Shown: positions 9,150 to 45,434 of the stretch, one piece after another
Layout of the letters: each line of letters opens with the position of its first letter
Position numbering within the stretch: position 1 is the first letter of the stretch
NCBI RefSeq assembly: GCF_947500325.1
Contig: NZ_CANMRQ010000024.1
Coordinates: 1-53,793 of the forward strand
Origin: an uncultured Lacinutrix sp.
Lineage (GTDB): Bacteria; Bacteroidota; Bacteroidia; Flavobacteriales; Flavobacteriaceae
DNA: 53,793 nt
Direction of reading: 5' to 3'
The notes under the pieces: generated by a model
The model's input: the letters and a program-made list of their open reading frames with translations, nothing else
What the model was told of the DNA's origin: nothing
The model's database searches: none
Translations under genes and position numbers: made by a program

Positions 9150-9764
9150 ATGAAAAAAGGAATCTTTTTATTAACAGTACTAAGTATCGTATTTACATCT
9201 TGTAATAATGACGATGATACACCACCTGCGTCTAATCCAGACCCATTACAATCTGAACAAATTATAAATTTTTACGCACCTCAAACTGGAGGACAAGGAC
9301 AACCAGTTGGTGGAGCGTTTACTAAATTTGACTTTACAACTGGTACACAAACTACAAGTGATACCGATTGGGATATTGCATTTAGGGGAACTACAATTGC
9401 CATTAATGGAGGAGAAGCTACAGGTACGTTAGATGAGCCTATTCGAAATGGAGAAGCTGCTGCAACAATAGTATCTGGTACTTTTGCAAGTGTTACTAGT
9501 GCAGATGGATTAACATTTGCACAAGATGGAGATACTGCTTTTGCAATACCAACAGGTAGTGATAATGGATGGTATAACTACAATTTTATGACAAATATTG
9601 TATCGCCTATACCTGGAAAAGTATTGGTAGTAAAAACAAGAAATGGTAAGTATGCAAAAATAGAAATACTTAGCTATTACCAAAATCAAGACACAGCTCA
9701 AGATGGTCGTTATTATACGTTCAATTATGCATATAATCCAAATGCTGGAGACTCTTCTTTTTAA
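9150..9764 (+). CDS. hmuY: HmuY-like haem-binding lipoprotein
   Basis: 204 residues with a lipoprotein signal (MKKGIFLLTVLSIVFTSC, lipid-bearing Cys18) followed by an Asp-rich tether. The body carries family marks: KFDFTTG near residue 58, DTDWDIAFRGTTIAINGG near 75 and a C-terminal YYTFNYAYNP. HmuY proteins sit on the cell surface, take haem from host or environmental haemoproteins and hand it to the HmuR receptor. Here the receptor is directly upstream with a 19-base gap, and a terminator follows at 9795. The pair thus forms a two-gene transcript. Confidence 0.82.
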   Translation: MKKGIFLLTVLSIVFTSCNNDDDTPPASNPDPLQSEQIINFYAPQTGGQGQPVGGAFTKFDFTTGTQTTSDTDWDIAFRGTTIAINGGEATGTLDEPIRNGEAAATIVSGTFASVTSADGLTFAQDGDTAFAIPTGSDNGWYNYNFMTNIVSPIPGKVLVVKTRNGKYAKIEILSYYQNQDTAQDGRYYTFNYAYNPNAGDSSF

Positions 9765-9794
9765 TCAATTTTTGATTTAAGTTAGTCTAACTAA

Positions 9795-9826
9795 AAAAGG
9801 TTCTTCTAATTTTAGAAGAGCCTTTT
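9795..9826 (+). terminator. Rho-independent terminator after hmuY
   Basis: AAAAGGTTCTTCTA, loop ATTT, TAGAAGAGCCTTTT: a 14-bp stem with one G-T pair and a T run. A separate palindrome, AGTTAGTCTAACT (9780-9792), comes just before it. Confidence 0.8.
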
Positions 9827-9896
9827 ACCTTTATTTAAAACACCTCGCAGAAAATATTACACTTACAAAATTTACTAATTTTATTAAACAATAATT

Positions 9897-10346
9897 ATGG
9901 CTTGTATCAGTAGTTTTAAAATTATTAAAGAGAAATTTACTTCTTTCTTAGAAGAGAATGGCCATAGAAAAACACCAGAACGGTATGCCATATTAAAAGA
10001 AATATATAGTACGAACGAGCATTTAGATATAGAAACGCTTTTCGTAAAAATGATAAATAAAAATTATAGAGTTAGTAGAGCTACTCTTTATAATACTATG
10101 GAAATTTTAATAGAATCTCGATTAGTTCGTAAGCATCAATTTGGTGATAAAGTAGCTCATTATGAAAAATCCTTTTTCTATGGAAAACACGATCATATTA
10201 TTTTGACAGATACTGGAGATATACTAGAGTTTTCCGATCCAAGAATTCAAGAAATAAAGAAAACCATTGAAGACGTTTTTAATATGAAAATTGACGAACA
10301 CTCATTGTATTTCTATGCTACTAGAAATAAGAAAACTGAAGATTAA
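9897..10346 (+). CDS. Fur-family metal-dependent repressor
   Basis: 149 residues. Winged-helix DNA-binding part at about 10-82, with the recognition helix in [13 protein letters not shown] (59-71); dimerisation and metal part 83-149 with HDH at 98-100, EFSD near 111 and H135. The two CxxC pairs that hold structural zinc in many Fur, Zur and PerR proteins are absent (only Cys3), so subtype cannot be assigned from them. It follows the haem receptor pair but after a terminator, so it is probably a separate gene. It is the obvious candidate to read the operators at 6997-7040. Confidence 0.85.
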
Positions 10347-10471
10347 AAAGATAAACTAGTAAATAATTCACCCTTTACTTATAATACGTGGAGACAAATA
10401 TTGTAATACTTTACTATTACTATAATTAAAGACATTCACACTTATATATTATTCACTTTTATATTTTTAGC

Positions 10472-10501
10472 TTGCACTTATACATTTCCCCCATACATTT
10501 A
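10472..10501 (+). promoter_or_regulatory. Possible promoter of the RiPP-like gene
   Basis: TTG at 10472-10474 and TACATTTA at 10494-10501 are 19 bases apart, the spacing of Bacteroidota -33/-7 promoters (the -7 box has A for the final G). The start codon is 72 bases further on, leaving a long T-rich leader. Confidence 0.35.
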
Positions 10502-10572
10502 TGTATTTTACGTTGGTGTGGTTTTTCTTTTTTTATATAATTGATAATTATTAATTTAAAATACATGAGATT

Positions 10573-10752
10573 ATGAAAAAAGACAATAGAATTTTAAATA
10601 GCTTAAAATTAAACACTTTAACGTCTATTGAAAAAAATAATATTCGAGGTGGTTTTGCAGATACTGGTGGCGAAGACAGCGCAGAGTTAGACAACTGTAG
10701 ATGTGAAGACGAAGACGAAAATGGTTGCAGTTGTGGAGGCAATGATAGATAA
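10573..10752 (+). CDS. Double-glycine leader peptide, orphan RiPP-type precursor with Cys-rich core
   Basis: A 59-residue gene. Residues 1-27 (MKKDNRILNSLKLNTLTSIE..., ending IRGG) fit the leader type seen in Bacteroidota natural-product precursors, 'MKK-n-LnsLkLnk-tis-l...GG', cut after Gly-Gly by a peptidase-containing transporter. The 32-residue core is very acidic (11 Asp/Glu, 2 Arg) and holds four cysteines as CRC (42-44) and CSC (52-54), seven residues apart. No radical-SAM, lanthionine, ATP-grasp or peptidase-transporter gene lies in the window, so the partner enzymes must be elsewhere or absent. A promoter-like pair precedes it and a strong terminator follows at 10822. The product could be a modified peptide or a small metal-binding peptide; function is unknown. 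Confidence 0.75.
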   Translation: MKKDNRILNSLKLNTLTSIEKNNIRGGFADTGGEDSAELDNCRCEDEDENGCSCGGNDR

Positions 10753-10821
10753 CATTAATTATAACTCTGATACACGAATTTCTATATTAAATTACAATAT
10801 AAAGACAAGCTGTTTTTGAAC

Positions 10822-10851
10822 AAAAAAAGCCACTCTTTTGAGTGGCTTTTT
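10822..10851. terminator. Bidirectional terminator between convergent genes
   Basis: AAAAAGCCACTC, loop TTTT, GAGTGGCTTTTT: a 12-bp stem with A and T runs on the two sides, so it can end transcripts from both the peptide gene and the carbonic anhydrase. Confidence 0.85.
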
Positions 10852-10873
10852 AGTTTCTATAATTTATATGTTT

Positions 10874-11503
10874 TTATAACATACCTACTTTTCCTGTCTG
10901 TAAGCTATAAACACCTCCAACAATTTTAATCTCACCGTTAGCTTCCATCTCTTTCAAGATTGGGCTTTTCTCACGAATACGATCCATTGTTAATTTTACA
11001 TTATATTCTACAGTCTTTGCTACATAATCTTTATTAGCAGATGTTAATTCGCCATCAAACTCATCTGATGCCTTTTTAACTGCTGGTAAGATATTATCTA
11101 ACATCGCTGTAATATTTCCTAGTTCTACTCCATCACAAGCTGCTTTTACTGCTCCACAAGCTTCATGACCTAAAACTAAAACCACTTTACTTCCTGCTAC
11201 TTTACAAGAGTACTCTAAGCTTCCTAAAATGTCTGTGTTTTCAAAATTTCCTGCAACACGAGATACAAATACATCTCCAATAGCTTGGTCTAATACTGTT
11301 TCTACTGGTACACGAGAATCTATACAAGATAGTACTACTGCTTTTGGAAATTGCCCACCTGTGGTTTGTGACACTAAAGCAGCATTATCTACTGCTTGAG
11401 AGTTTCCATTTACAAATCTTTCGTTTCCTTCTAATAAATCTTGTAATACACTATCTGCTGTTAATGTATCTTGAACTTGTTTTGTTATTGCTATATTTTT
11501 CAT
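10874..11503 (-). CDS. Beta-class carbonic anhydrase
   Basis: Interconverts CO2 and bicarbonate in the cytoplasm. The 209-residue protein has all zinc-site residues: Cys60, Asp62 and Arg64 in SCIDSRVP, and His113 and Cys116 in GHEACGAV. No signal peptide is present. The gene follows a SulP transporter by 18 bases, a pairing well known for bicarbonate uptake, and ends before the shared terminator. It probably keeps bicarbonate supplied to carboxylases or balances CO2 after SulP-driven import. Confidence 0.93.
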   Translation of the reverse strand: MKNIAITKQVQDTLTADSVLQDLLEGNERFVNGNSQAVDNAALVSQTTGGQFPKAVVLSCIDSRVPVETVLDQAIGDVFVSRVAGNFENTDILGSLEYSCKVAGSKVVLVLGHEACGAVKAACDGVELGNITAMLDNILPAVKKASDEFDGELTSANKDYVAKTVEYNVKLTMDRIREKSPILKEMEANGEIKIVGGVYSLQTGKVGML

Positions 11504-11521
11504 TGTAATATATATTTTGTT

Positions 11522-13390
11522 TTAATAAATATCTTCTACATTATTATTAATCCACTGTAGACAGGATTTAAAATCTTTAAAAATAAAATCTTTAGATACT
11601 AAGCCTGGTATAATATCTATACGCTCCATCATATATCTAGGTTGCTTAAGAAGATCTACAAAAAGTATTTTCACATTTTTCTTTTTTAAATCTAATAATA
11701 CATCTTCCATAACGTATAAACCCGATTGGTCTAGGTACTGCATACGCCCTAATCGTATAACCACAGCTTTGGCTGTGTTGGGGATTTGTTTAGACAACGC
11801 TTGAAAATCGCTTGTCGACCCAAAAAATAAAGGCCCTTTAATGTGTTTTATAAACACCTCCTCTTTTAGTTTTGATGGAAAATCACTCTCATCTTCCCAA
11901 TAGTCTTCTTTAAAAGCTTTAATATTTGAACTTTCAGCCGTAAGGTCACCTATTTTTTTCATAAACATTAAAGAAGAAATTATAAGCCCTATTCCTACAG
12001 CATATACTAAATCCCATAGTGATGATAACACTAAAACAATAAGCATAATCATAACTTCAGAGCTTAATTTAACTGGTCCTAATGTTATATCTTTTGGTAA
12101 ATGCGGAATGGCTTTTAACCCTTTATAATCCATAACACCAATACCAACAGTTATTAATATCCCTGCTAAAACTGCTGTCGGTATTTGAGACGCTAAGTTT
12201 GGTAATCCGGGAATCATTAAAATACTAAATAATAGTAATCCAGCAATAACTCCTGACAATTTAGTTTTACCTCCAGAATTTATATTTACTACCGTTCTTA
12301 TAGTCGCACCAGCTCCAGGAATACCTCCAAAAATTGCTGCTATACTATTACCAATACCTTGCCCAACTAATTCTTTATTAGGTTTGTGTTTGGTTTTAGT
12401 CATATTATCTGCCACAATACTCGTTAATAACGAATCTATAGCACCTAATAAAGCCAAAGCTACTGCTGTAAAGATATACGGTTTTATAGTCCCAAATTTA
12501 AATTCTGTTATAATACCCAGATTTGGTATTGGTAGACCTTCAGGGATTTTTGGTATTGGTCTGTAATCTAGGTTAGCAATAATGGCAATACCAGACATAA
12601 TAACTAAAGCTACTAGTGTACTAGGTATTTTTGTTGTAATCCGTTTAAAACCATAAATAACAAAAATGGTACTAAGTGCCAATATAAGCTCTAACCAATT
12701 GATGTTCTTGATGGCACGTGGTAATACTTTTAAAGCTCCCAAAACACCTGAAGCATTTTTTGCAGCTAGTGTTTGCGACTCCTTTAAAATATCAGCTTCA
12801 GTAATCTTTTCTGCTCTAATAATAGTCTCTTTAAAATCCTCTAACACAAGTATGCCTTCTTCAGCTTCTTCTATTAAGATATTTTCTAAGATAACTTCCT
12901 CTGCTTGAGGTTTAAATTTATCTACATAGCTCATATCTTCCTTTGGGTAGTAGCCAAGCGACGGTAAGAACTGGGTTATTAAAATAATAACACCAATAGC
13001 GGTCATAAAGCCAGAGACTACAGGATAGGGAATATATTTAATATACTGCCCAACACCTATAGCACCCAAAACTATTTGTATGAGCCCTGCTAATAAAAAA
13101 ACCGTTAGTATGGCTGGAAGTGCTTTAGTAACATCGCCATCATTAGCTGCAATTATGCCCGCTATAATAACCATACTAACTGCTGTCATAGGTGCAGTTG
13201 GTCCAGAAATTTGAGTATTTGTACCTCCAAAAATCGCAGCGAAGAAACTAATAAAAATAGCACCATATAAACCTGCGCTTGGACCTAACCCAGAAGAAAC
13301 GCCAAAAGCTAATGCTAATGGTAATGCTACGATTCCTGCGGTGATGCCTCCAAAGGCATCTCCTTTAATGTTTGAAAACAATTTCTTCAT
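11522..13390 (-). CDS. SulP-family anion transporter with STAS domain, probable bicarbonate carrier
   Basis: 622 residues. The N-terminal membrane part has SulP signatures (GGITAGIVALPLALAFG near 14-30, SGPTAPMT at 62-69, GGIPGAGATIRT in the second half), and a STAS domain fills the last ~110 residues. Substrates of the family include sulfate and bicarbonate; the carbonic anhydrase directly downstream argues for bicarbonate. Unusual: an acidic stretch of about 65 residues (148-213, rich in Glu) is inserted between membrane helices, absent from the second SulP protein at 14179. Confidence 0.9.
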   Translation of the reverse strand: MKKLFSNIKGDAFGGITAGIVALPLALAFGVSSGLGPSAGLYGAIFISFFAAIFGGTNTQISGPTAPMTAVSMVIIAGIIAANDGDVTKALPAILTVFLLAGLIQIVLGAIGVGQYIKYIPYPVVSGFMTAIGVIILITQFLPSLGYYPKEDMSYVDKFKPQAEEVILENILIEEAEEGILVLEDFKETIIRAEKITEADILKESQTLAAKNASGVLGALKVLPRAIKNINWLELILALSTIFVIYGFKRITTKIPSTLVALVIMSGIAIIANLDYRPIPKIPEGLPIPNLGIITEFKFGTIKPYIFTAVALALLGAIDSLLTSIVADNMTKTKHKPNKELVGQGIGNSIAAIFGGIPGAGATIRTVVNINSGGKTKLSGVIAGLLLFSILMIPGLPNLASQIPTAVLAGILITVGIGVMDYKGLKAIPHLPKDITLGPVKLSSEVMIMLIVLVLSSLWDLVYAVGIGLIISSLMFMKKIGDLTAESSNIKAFKEDYWEDESDFPSKLKEEVFIKHIKGPLFFGSTSDFQALSKQIPNTAKAVVIRLGRMQYLDQSGLYVMEDVLLDLKKKNVKILFVDLLKQPRYMMERIDIIPGLVSKDFIFKDFKSCLQWINNNVEDIY

Positions 13391-41980: not shown

Positions 41981-43714
41981 ATGACCTTTAAACCCCAATT
42001 TCGCAATAGCTTACTTAATTTTTGTAGCATTTTAATAGTGGTTCTCTTTAATTTAAAAGGATATTCGCAAGCACAAAAAACGTATGCTATACCAGATTCT
42101 TTAAAAGATAAGACTTACAAAGAACTATATAAGCAAAATAATATATCAGCAGAAAAAGGAGATTCTATAAGACGACTTTTTTATGCTAAAATGTATTTAC
42201 ATAAAGCAAAAAATGAAAATGATACTATAAGAATAGCTCATGGATTCTCTCAACATGTGCAATTAAGTAATCATAAAACAAGTATAATATATGCGGATAG
42301 TATTATTACACTTACTAATAGTTTAAATAATTATTATTACCCAGGTTACGGTTATATGGTTAAAGGAATAAGCTATTATAATTTATCTTACTATAATAAA
42401 GCTTTAGAAAATTATTTAATTGCCCAAGACTACGCAATAAATAATAATAATGGAGAGCATCTTTCTTATATAACTGAAGGCATAGGAGACATCAAGTTAT
42501 TTTGGGGAAACTATAATGAAGCTTTATTACATTTTAAATCCCAATTAAATTATTTAATCAAAAATGATAACACATATACAAATCGACAAAATTACAATAC
42601 TCTAATACATAAATTAGCAAATTGTCATATTCAACTCAAACAATTAGATTCTGCTTTATTTTATACTAAAAAAGGATATGAAAATAGTACACTAAATAAA
42701 AATGATTTATGGAAATATTCGTTTGCTAAGCAGGCAGGATATATCGCTTATTATAATAATAATTTTAAAAATGCTTTAGACAGCATTAATAAAGGAAAAG
42801 TATCTGATGAAAGAGCTAATGAATTTATTAATACAGCTTATTACAAAGGCAAAATTTATAATAAACTAAAAGACAGCACTAAAGCTCTTTATTACTTTAA
42901 AAAAGCAGATTCTATATATAGTGCACATCCAGAAGAAATAATTCCAGAAGTAAGAGACGTACAAGAATATTTTGTAAAGTATTATGCCAAACAAAAAGAG
43001 GTTGATAGTCAATTAGTTTACGTAGAGCGTTTATTACATGTGGATAGTATTGTAGATTCATATAAAAAAGAGCTCAACGAAACCATTATTAAAGAATACG
43101 ATAGACCAAAGTTATTAGCAGAAAAGCAAAACATTATTAATAGCCTAGAACGTAAAAAAACAAGATTGAGACTATACATTATTAGTTTAATTACTGGCTT
43201 GTTTGTACTCTTAGGTTTTACTATACGATTTTATTACAAAAAAAACCTTTACAAAAAACGTTTTAGAAATTTTATTAGTACTAATAGTGAAATTGAGAAA
43301 AAAGAAGATCTAATAATTACACCTAAAAACCCATTACAAGGGGTTTCTCAAGATGTTATTGAAGCTATATTAAAACAATTAGAAGTATTTGAAAACGAAA
43401 ACAACTATCTAGATAATAGTATTACACTTGGTAATCTAGCCAAAGCATTAAATACTAATTCTAGCTACTTATCCAAGATTATAAACCATTACAAACAAAA
43501 AAACTTTAACGCCTATCTTACAGACTTAAGAATAGATTATTGCATCGCGACATTAAAAACCAATAAAACCATAAGAAGTTATACCATAAAAGCCATTGCA
43601 GAACAAGTTGGTTTTAAAAATAGCGAATCGTTCTCTAAAGCATTTTATAAAAAAACAGGCATTTACCCATCGTTTTTTATTAAGCAAATTGATAAACAAG
43701 ATAAAAGCGAATAA
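41981..43714 (+). CDS. Membrane AraC-family regulator with exported TPR domain (copy 1)
   Basis: 577 residues: N-terminal signal segment ending near 29 (GYSQ), TPR-type helices about 60-330, membrane segment about 395-415, and a cytoplasmic AraC helix-turn-helix pair about 480-566 (ITLGNLAKALNTNSSYLSKI, IKAIAEQVGFKNSESFSKAF). There is no histidine kinase part, so it would sense with the TPR domain and act directly on DNA. Followed one base later by a paralogue. Target genes unknown; the module itself and the flanking envelope genes are candidates. Confidence 0.87.
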   Translation: MTFKPQFRNSLLNFCSILIVVLFNLKGYSQAQKTYAIPDSLKDKTYKELYKQNNISAEKGDSIRRLFYAKMYLHKAKNENDTIRIAHGFSQHVQLSNHKTSIIYADSIITLTNSLNNYYYPGYGYMVKGISYYNLSYYNKALENYLIAQDYAINNNNGEHLSYITEGIGDIKLFWGNYNEALLHFKSQLNYLIKNDNTYTNRQNYNTLIHKLANCHIQLKQLDSALFYTKKGYENSTLNKNDLWKYSFAKQAGYIAYYNNNFKNALDSINKGKVSDERANEFINTAYYKGKIYNKLKDSTKALYYFKKADSIYSAHPEEIIPEVRDVQEYFVKYYAKQKEVDSQLVYVERLLHVDSIVDSYKKELNETIIKEYDRPKLLAEKQNIINSLERKKTRLRLYIISLITGLFVLLGFTIRFYYKKNLYKKRFRNFISTNSEIEKKEDLIITPKNPLQGVSQDVIEAILKQLEVFENENNYLDNSITLGNLAKALNTNSSYLSKIINHYKQKNFNAYLTDLRIDYCIATLKTNKTIRSYTIKAIAEQVGFKNSESFSKAFYKKTGIYPSFFIKQIDKQDKSE

Positions 43715-43715
43715 C

Positions 43716-45434
43716 ATGAAACTAACTACAACATTTTTTCTGTTTTCTATTGTGTTTTTGTTGACCACAAAGTGCTTTTCTCAATCGCAAAAAAAGTATT
43801 TTATTCCAGATTCTTTAAAGAGTAAGACTTATAAAGAGCTTTATAAACAGTATAATATCTATGGAGAAAAAGGAGATTCTATAAAACAGTTTTTTTTTAC
43901 TAAAATATATTTACATAAAGCTAAAAATGAAAATGACACTATACGGATAGCTAATGGTTATTCCCAATTCATTGGAACTACTGATAATGAATTATTACAA
44001 ATAGCTTATGCTGACAGCATTATTTCACATACTAAATATTTTAAAAACAATCATATTTATCCAGGTTATGGATATATGGTTAAAGGGATAACTTATTATA
44101 TCTTATTTGACTATAAAAAATCTATAGAGAACTACCTAATAAGTAAAGATTATGCAATAAAAAATAACAATACACAACACTTGTTTTATATAAATGATGG
44201 TATTGGAGAAATTAAAATGTTTTGGGGAAACTATAACGATGCTATACTACACTTTAAATCTCAATTAAATTACCTAATTAAAAATGATAATGTTTATTTC
44301 AATCGATATAACTATTTACTGACATTATCAAAATTGTCAGATTGCCATATTCAACTGAAGCAACTAGATTCTGCTTTATTCTATAATAGAAAAGGATTCA
44401 AAGAGAGTATTAAAAGAAAAGATAATTATTGGCCTTCAAAATTCACAAAACAAAGTGGCTATATCTTATATTTTAAAAATAATTTTATAGCGGCATTAGA
44501 TAGTATTAAAAAAGGTGAAAAATCTGACGTAATGGCTATCCATAAATTAAATACAAATTATTATAAGGGTGAAATTTATAATAAACTAAACCATAATGCC
44601 AACGCTCTTTATTTCTTTAAAAAAGCAGATTCTATTTATAATGCACATCCAGAACAAATACTTCCTGAAGCAAGAGCTATACAAGAGTATTTTGTTAAAT
44701 ATTATGCTAAACAAAAGGATGTTAATAATCAATTAAAATATGTAAATCGCTTATTACATGTAGATAGCATTCTAGATGCTAATAGAAAAGAACTCAACGA
44801 AACCATTATTAAAGAATACGATAGACCAAGATTATTAGCAGAAAAGCAGAGCATCATTAATGACCTAGAACGTAAAACAACAAAATCGAGATTATATCTT
44901 ATTAGTTTAATTGCTGGCTTATTATCGCTCTTAGCTTTTACTATACGATTTTATTACAAGAAAAACCTTTACAAAAAACGTTTTAGTAATCTTATTAGTA
45001 CTAATAGTGAAATTGAGGAAAAAGAAGACCTAATAATTACACCTAAAAACCCATTAAAAGGGGTTTCTCAAGATGTTATTGAAGCTATATTAAAACAATT
45101 AGAAGTATTTGAAAACAAAAACAGCTATCTAGACAATACTATTACACTTAGCAACTTAGCTAAAACATTAAATACAAATTCTAGCTACTTATCTAAGGTT
45201 ATAAACCATTATATGCAAAAAAACTTTAACGCCTATCTTACAGACTTAAGAATAGACTATTGCATCGCGACATTAAAAACTAATAAAACGATAAGAAGTT
45301 ATACCATAAAAGCCATTGCAGAACAGGTTGGTTTTAAAAATAGCGAATCGTTCTCTAAAGCATTTTATAAAAAAACAGGCATTTACCCATCGTTTTTTAT
45401 TAAGCAAATTGATAAACAGGATAAAAGCGCATAA
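43716..45434 (+). CDS. Membrane AraC-family regulator with exported TPR domain (copy 2)
   Basis: 572 residues, same layout as copy 1: signal segment to residue 23 (CFSQ), TPR helices, membrane segment, AraC domain. ATG 43716 is chosen because it gives a proper signal peptide one base after the upstream stop; a longer frame from 43596 is only overlap with copy 1. The DNA-binding ends of the two copies are almost identical (positions 43500-43714 and 45220-45434 differ at about six bases), whereas the TPR parts have diverged. Confidence 0.87.
   Translation: MKLTTTFFLFSIVFLLTTKCFSQSQKKYFIPDSLKSKTYKELYKQYNIYGEKGDSIKQFFFTKIYLHKAKNENDTIRIANGYSQFIGTTDNELLQIAYADSIISHTKYFKNNHIYPGYGYMVKGITYYILFDYKKSIENYLISKDYAIKNNNTQHLFYINDGIGEIKMFWGNYNDAILHFKSQLNYLIKNDNVYFNRYNYLLTLSKLSDCHIQLKQLDSALFYNRKGFKESIKRKDNYWPSKFTKQSGYILYFKNNFIAALDSIKKGEKSDVMAIHKLNTNYYKGEIYNKLNHNANALYFFKKADSIYNAHPEQILPEARAIQEYFVKYYAKQKDVNNQLKYVNRLLHVDSILDANRKELNETIIKEYDRPRLLAEKQSIINDLERKTTKSRLYLISLIAGLLSLLAFTIRFYYKKNLYKKRFSNLISTNSEIEEKEDLIITPKNPLKGVSQDVIEAILKQLEVFENKNSYLDNTITLSNLAKTLNTNSSYLSKVINHYMQKNFNAYLTDLRIDYCIATLKTNKTIRSYTIKAIAEQVGFKNSESFSKAFYKKTGIYPSFFIKQIDKQDKSA

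Follow-up and report, generated by a model that had tools for sequence, protein, structure and literature searches.

Peptidase-containing ABC transporters act on precursors whose leaders follow the consensus L-12, E-8, L-7 and GG, with position -4 likely conferring specificity (PMC6959990, PMC6363468). Such leaders end in GG, GA or GS, with hydrophobic residues at -4 and -12 and usually a Glu at -8. For LahT, a change of Leu-7 to Lys strongly impaired cleavage (PMC6363468). A number of class I lanthipeptide precursors of Bacteroidota, many of them ending in GG, carry the leader motif LxLxKx5L, as described by Walker et al., whose search extended no further than seven genes from LanC in each direction (PMC7268733). 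Prochlorosins are also GG precursors, and many of them are encoded far from their shared enzyme (PMC7268733, PMC6363468).

Here we describe a GG peptide encoded in a window of 53,793 nucleotides, the whole of the stretch analyzed, from an uncultured Lacinutrix sp. (contig NZ_CANMRQ010000024.1). It resembles the Bacteroidota class I lanthipeptide precursors (NF038153, LxLxKx5L), which are present in the same genome and genus, in the length of its leader, the GG, I-4, L-12 and a Leu-rich KLN segment. However, its leader is without their KxxxxxL element, and its core is poor in Ser/Thr and more acidic than all 126 cores compared. With the class II bacteriocin-type GG peptides of its own genome (contigs C5 and C11) it shares L-12, E-8, I-4, GG, several cysteines and the lack of a LanB motif. 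These peptides differ in having leaders of the type ILN(L/I)GKxLNKxExKxINGG, less acidic cores of 34 to 55 residues and a location near genes for VKOR-thioredoxin proteins. Like many prochlorosins, the peptide is encoded at a distance from the machinery it would share; prochlorosins differ in their Nif11 leaders and their LanM (class II) enzyme, and for the window peptide no modification is claimed. Methanobactin-type and other Cys-rich MNIO peptides have a similarly short Cys-rich core and a possible link to metal, but they have another leader, and no protein matching PF05114, the MNIO enzyme, was found in the genome of the window.

Results

The initial annotation described a 59-residue gene with a 27-residue GG leader and a 32-residue core in which CRC and CSC stand seven residues apart among 11 acidic residues, and we confirm each of these points. 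The locus contains the following features.

9897-10346, + strand: Fur-family regulator (Pfam FUR), upstream neighbor, no terminator found before the peptide
10513-10543, + strand: candidate promoter of the Bacteroidota type, TTG ... TATAATTG, differing at one position from the -33/-7 consensus
10551-10742, - strand: longer antisense ORF of 63 aa with a TTG start, judged false
10573-10752, + strand: peptide precursor, from the ATG at 10573 to the end of the stop codon at 10752, leader/core = MKKDNRILNSLKLNTLTSIEKNNIRGG / FADTGGEDSAELDNCRCEDEDENGCSCGGNDR
10573-10653, + strand: 27-residue GG leader, putative export and cleavage signal, with L-15, L-12, E-8, I-4, G-2 and G-1 and a Lys at -7
10654-10749, + strand: 32-residue core, CxC-x7-CxC, 11 Asp/Glu, net charge -9, 3 Ser/Thr
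10750-10752, + strand: stop codon of the peptide
10824-10851, + strand: terminator-like hairpin 3' of the peptide ORF, from a hairpin search
10874-11503, - strand: carbonic anhydrase, convergent downstream neighbor, outside the peptide system

The frame of the peptide ORF is intact, and its codon use and G+C look coding-like. The G+C content of the ORF is 0.35, compared with 0.22 on its upstream and 0.24 on its downstream side. The synonymous-codon score is +5.6, where gene pieces of equal length have a median of 7.0; because 6.45% of 4000 false-frame pieces equal or beat this value, the codon test is weak by itself. The slightly longer frame on the complementary strand, already taken to be false at the outset, scores -5.3 and looks noncoding. 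The promoter candidate, of the -33/-7 type, is a lead only. Two terminator-like hairpins were found in 9700-11600, with 0.5 expected, and none of these lies in the interval between the Fur-family gene and the peptide ORF. The hairpin at 10824-10851 is symmetric and may be used equally by the convergent carbonic anhydrase gene. An Rfam scan of the window at the gathering score gave no match.

The leader has L-12, E-8, I-4 and GG of the transporter consensus, and hence a hydrophobic residue at both -4 and -12, together with a Lys at -7. We scored it with an ungapped 18-column matrix anchored at the GG and derived from 12 GG leaders encoded at other places in the genome (C1, C2, C3, C5, C11 and C23). 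These represent 12 of its 15 candidate GG precursors, two that end in GKG/GKGA and one that is short and doubtful being omitted, and the window peptide was excluded from the training. The peptide reached 21.9 bits, a score not attained by any of 12,095 random ORFs (30 to 160 aa, from 40 random sequences of window length; top score 19.6), so the resemblance is more than chance. In a ranking of 698 real ORFs, taken from the window and seven loci, it came 13th, directly behind the 12 training leaders, and none of the other window ORFs among the best 30 listed scored above 1.5. The training leaders themselves had leave-one-out scores of 1.7 to 42.5, 5 of the 12 being lower than the score of the window peptide. 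By type, its leader scored 24.6 with the L1a-type leaders versus 5.1 with the bacteriocin-type, which comprise four near-identical members only. Within its own genome, the peptide has a match to the C1 peptide that covers the leader only (E of 0.09).

The Lys at -7 is the main blemish of the leader. We compared 146 GG leaders of the genus, made up of 143 of 148 HMM hits (five without a GG, GA or AG end were dropped) and three bacteriocin-type peptides added by hand. A hydrophobic residue is present at -4 in 145, at -12 in 144, at -15 in 140 and at -7 in 121 of these, and only two have Lys or Arg at -7. A hydrophobic -7 is usual, not universal. The four clear leaders adjoining the genome's own transporters carry T, I, Q and L at this position, so these partners do not require it to be hydrophobic. 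With an HMM built iteratively from leaders of the genus, the window peptide scored -2.0 bits, which counts against a close kinship with the leaders of the precursor arrays of the genus, at least as judged by a profile that MKTQ-type array leaders dominate. A Pfam and NCBIfam scan of the peptide listed nothing at an E-value of ≤10, with HMMER filters dropping most matches above about 0.1. We consider the GG leader convincing and, as first proposed, of the kind that peptidase-containing ABC transporters would process.

Of the 32 residues of the core, 4 are Cys, 11 Asp/Glu, 2 Arg and 3 Ser/Thr. Compared with 126 distinct cores of GG precursors from the genus, its charge of -9 is the lowest (the next is -6), no other core has two CxC motifs (a single one is present in 2 of them), and its Ser/Thr content is 0.09 versus a mean of 0.25. 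Precursor cores vary so widely in the genus that a unique core would be expected; it is by its acidity that this one stands out.

The peptide is apparently species-specific. Searches with the whole peptide found it in its own genome only, in 1 of 13 genomes of the genus and 1 of 397 of the family. No relative was present among 200 candidate stretches from genome_contigs (84,980 species, from which the own and very near genomes may be absent), among 44 candidate stretches from viral contigs or in plasmids. The phage search yielded no orthologue and a single match at an E-value of about 1, and the PDB search a lysozyme at 1.4 as its one match, with no relative that has a known metal site. A pattern search of genome_contigs, restricted to the exact CxC spacing and to four acidic residues following the first CxC, returned 18 stretches. 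All of their frames were read, over up to 70 residues before the motif and 60 from the motif on, and no short GG-leader peptide was found; 9 of the 18 come from a single protein that recurs in Pseudobutyrivibrio contigs, and another belongs to a 292-residue frame of Meridianimaribacter flavus. In the literature that we searched we found no work on such a peptide, which does not mean that none has been published. The initial annotation would have counted a lack of homologues with conserved GG leaders against itself. This lack is partial: similar leaders occur in the own genome, and an orthologue was not found in any of the collections above.

On the upstream side, the Fur-family gene is followed by genes for an HmuY-family protein and a TonB receptor; the initial annotation had noted haem genes and a Fur-family gene here. 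The connection to iron that had been drawn from them is not supported. It is one of proximity only, because Fur-box-like sites occur about as often as chance predicts and the loci of relatives that were read showed no GG peptide. A candidate Fur box upstream of the peptide (10542-10556, 3 mismatches) was rejected as one of 15 matches in the window, with 14.25 expected. The closest Fur-family orthologue in a genus-mate (G002, 86% identity) has no GG peptide seen adjoining it. There are 15 Fur-family loci, one being that of the window; L094 was read over its whole length, and a screen of 13 with a single GG motif gave no match. The genus has 14 carbonic anhydrase loci, seven of which (the own locus and six others) were read as lists of nonoverlapping ORFs, in which small overlapping ORFs could be hidden; no GG peptide was seen adjoining the gene in the six relatives. 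In the three closest of these loci, the side of the gene that corresponds to the peptide has a CvpA-like frame. The own genome has two similar Fur-family genes (window 9897-10346 and G000:C35:9012-9434, 68% identity), and only 2 of the 13 genomes of the genus have two Fur-family matches.

In agreement with the initial annotation, no processing gene was seen adjoining the peptide. The genome has only two strong C39 transporters, G000:C2:502421 and G000:C5:98225, neither of them in the window, and two weak C39 matches that lie within VKOR-thioredoxin proteins. It also contains 14 other GG precursors at seven places, and those at C1, C2:257k, C3, C11 and C23 are likewise located away from both transporters. 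Hence, action at a distance would be normal in this genome. The cysteine-rich GG peptides at C5 and C11 are encoded near VKOR-thioredoxin proteins. Two such proteins (L014:8613-10214 and L016:7890-9497) have a weak N-terminal C39-like match and are close to cysteine-rich GG peptides; they are possible disulfide makers for exported peptides.

Both LanB and LanC are encoded in the genome, away from the window. The only Lant_dehydr_N protein is in the C2 locus, which also contains a C-terminal dehydratase half, LanC, HlyD, the C39 transporter and GG precursors, and a second LanC stands beside two precursors at C23. The window leader lacks LxLxKx5L in every form from the strict to the loosest. Of 143 leaders of the genus, 19 have the strict form and 141 the loosest; for the 11 leaders of the own genome the numbers are 5 and 9. 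The NF038153 profile did not list the peptide at an E-value of ≤10, a range in which HMMER filters drop most matches above about 0.1, and the 9 hits that the genome gives at ≤1 do not include it. Given a leader without the LxLxKx5L element, thioether modification appears unlikely, and the combination of this leader with a Ser/Thr-poor core makes a lanthipeptide unlikely. The idea of a five-residue deletion of the LanB site was dropped, as ungapped and gapped alignments score alike (11 of 20). The genome has one SPASM radical-SAM protein, whose 3.2-kb locus has no GG-type precursor among the listed ORFs of at least 60 aa. The window peptide is not among the 5 hits of the TIGR04149 profile, for GG peptides modified by radical-SAM enzymes, at an E-value of ≤10. 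The single graspetide ligase model tried, TIGR04184, gave one weak match (21.4 bits, with a cutoff of 475).

Discussion

Two peptidase-containing exporters, one lanthipeptide dehydratase and 14 scattered GG precursors make a distant system for the window peptide plausible. Of the distant maturation system suggested in the initial annotation, it is the export that keeps its footing, through the two C39 transporters; modification of the core has been weakened, since the sole dehydratase found pairs with LxLxKx5L leaders, MNIO enzymes were not found in the genome and the SPASM locus has no GG precursor among its listed ORFs of at least 60 aa. We consider the product to be most likely an apparently species-specific, exported, acidic peptide that is disulfide-bonded or metal-binding. 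Its leader, which is similar to those of the genome's other GG precursors, would be recognized by one of the two distant transporters, and this transporter would cut after the GG and export the core. The 32-residue core is probably not turned into a lanthipeptide and would be released as a small, strongly acidic peptide, in which the four cysteines may form disulfides or bind a metal ion. Disulfide formation could perhaps be aided by those VKOR-thioredoxin proteins whose genes lie close to other GG peptides rich in cysteine. The window peptide would then be one of several scattered GG peptides that share export machinery. Taken as a whole, from distant C39 export of a core that is not a lanthipeptide to its disulfides or metal and the shared machinery, this is the explanation we lean towards.

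A function can be added to the metal-binding branch of this explanation: the exported peptide might buffer or scavenge Zn, Cu or Fe. Two CxC pairs would offer four thiolates, to which the acidic core would add hard ligands, and it is in these two respects, charge and paired CxC motifs, that the core is extreme among the 126 compared; the HmuY, TonB receptor and Fur-family genes are nearby as well. However, Fur-box-like sites no more frequent than expected, the lysozyme as the sole PDB match and a neighborhood that is not conserved in the relatives read all speak against such a role, and we regard it as possible but doubtful.

Could the peptide nevertheless be a class I lanthipeptide precursor? 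The distant LanB and LanC would then join dehydrated Ser/Thr to Cys before export. At C2, one LanB and a LanC are encoded together with a C39 transporter and GG precursors, the leader is nearer to the L1a-type than to the four near-identical bacteriocin-type leaders, and a core with 4 Cys and 3 Ser/Thr could supply the residues. Yet the leader fails even the loosest form of a motif that nearly all genus leaders satisfy, NF038153 does not hit it, and its Ser/Thr content is well below the mean of the genus cores. We therefore rate this route as unlikely.

A bolder reading would make the peptide an extracellular metal chelator of Bacteroidota, an unmodified, acidic CxC-x7-CxC peptide that is ribosomally made and processed by a transporter. 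Its export would follow the lanthipeptide/bacteriocin route, by means of a leader in which the features for export are present and the enzyme-docking motif is absent. We put this forward as a speculation with little probability; if the core were a metal chelator, this would be an unexpected use of that export route. Finally, a decayed or chance ORF that merely resembles a GG peptide would fit the lack of orthologues in the other genus and family genomes and the Lys at -7, but it is improbable in view of the random ORFs, none of which scores as well, the coding-like codon use and G+C and the intact frame.

The case illustrates that a stand-alone GG-leader gene of fewer than 60 codons is recognizable with a matrix made from the exported peptides of its own genome. 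It also suggests that the peptides exported by such genomes outnumber those reported by cluster-based mining.

Elsewhere in the genus, GG precursors of the class I lanthipeptide type form dense arrays in genus-mates G004, G006, G009, G011 and G012 (L079-L086), with up to 48 NF038153 matches at an E-value of ≤1 in one genome, weak ones included. The cores in these arrays are highly varied, some occur as near-identical copies in tandem, and in G012 a LanB adjoins the array. GG precursors were recurrently seen near large proteins that end in an AraC-type HTH (L079, L081, L086, L087, L015 and L016) or near TPR-CHAT proteins (L003, L014 and L088); TPRs are listed in the AraC-type HTH proteins of L087 and L015. 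The window encodes two similar-looking tandem proteins of 577 and 612 aa at 41981-45434, near which no GG peptide was found. The 577-aa protein, the only one of the pair scanned, has TPRs and an AraC-type HTH like the proteins near GG arrays. An IS1-type transposase is encoded at 252-926, near the left end of the contig.
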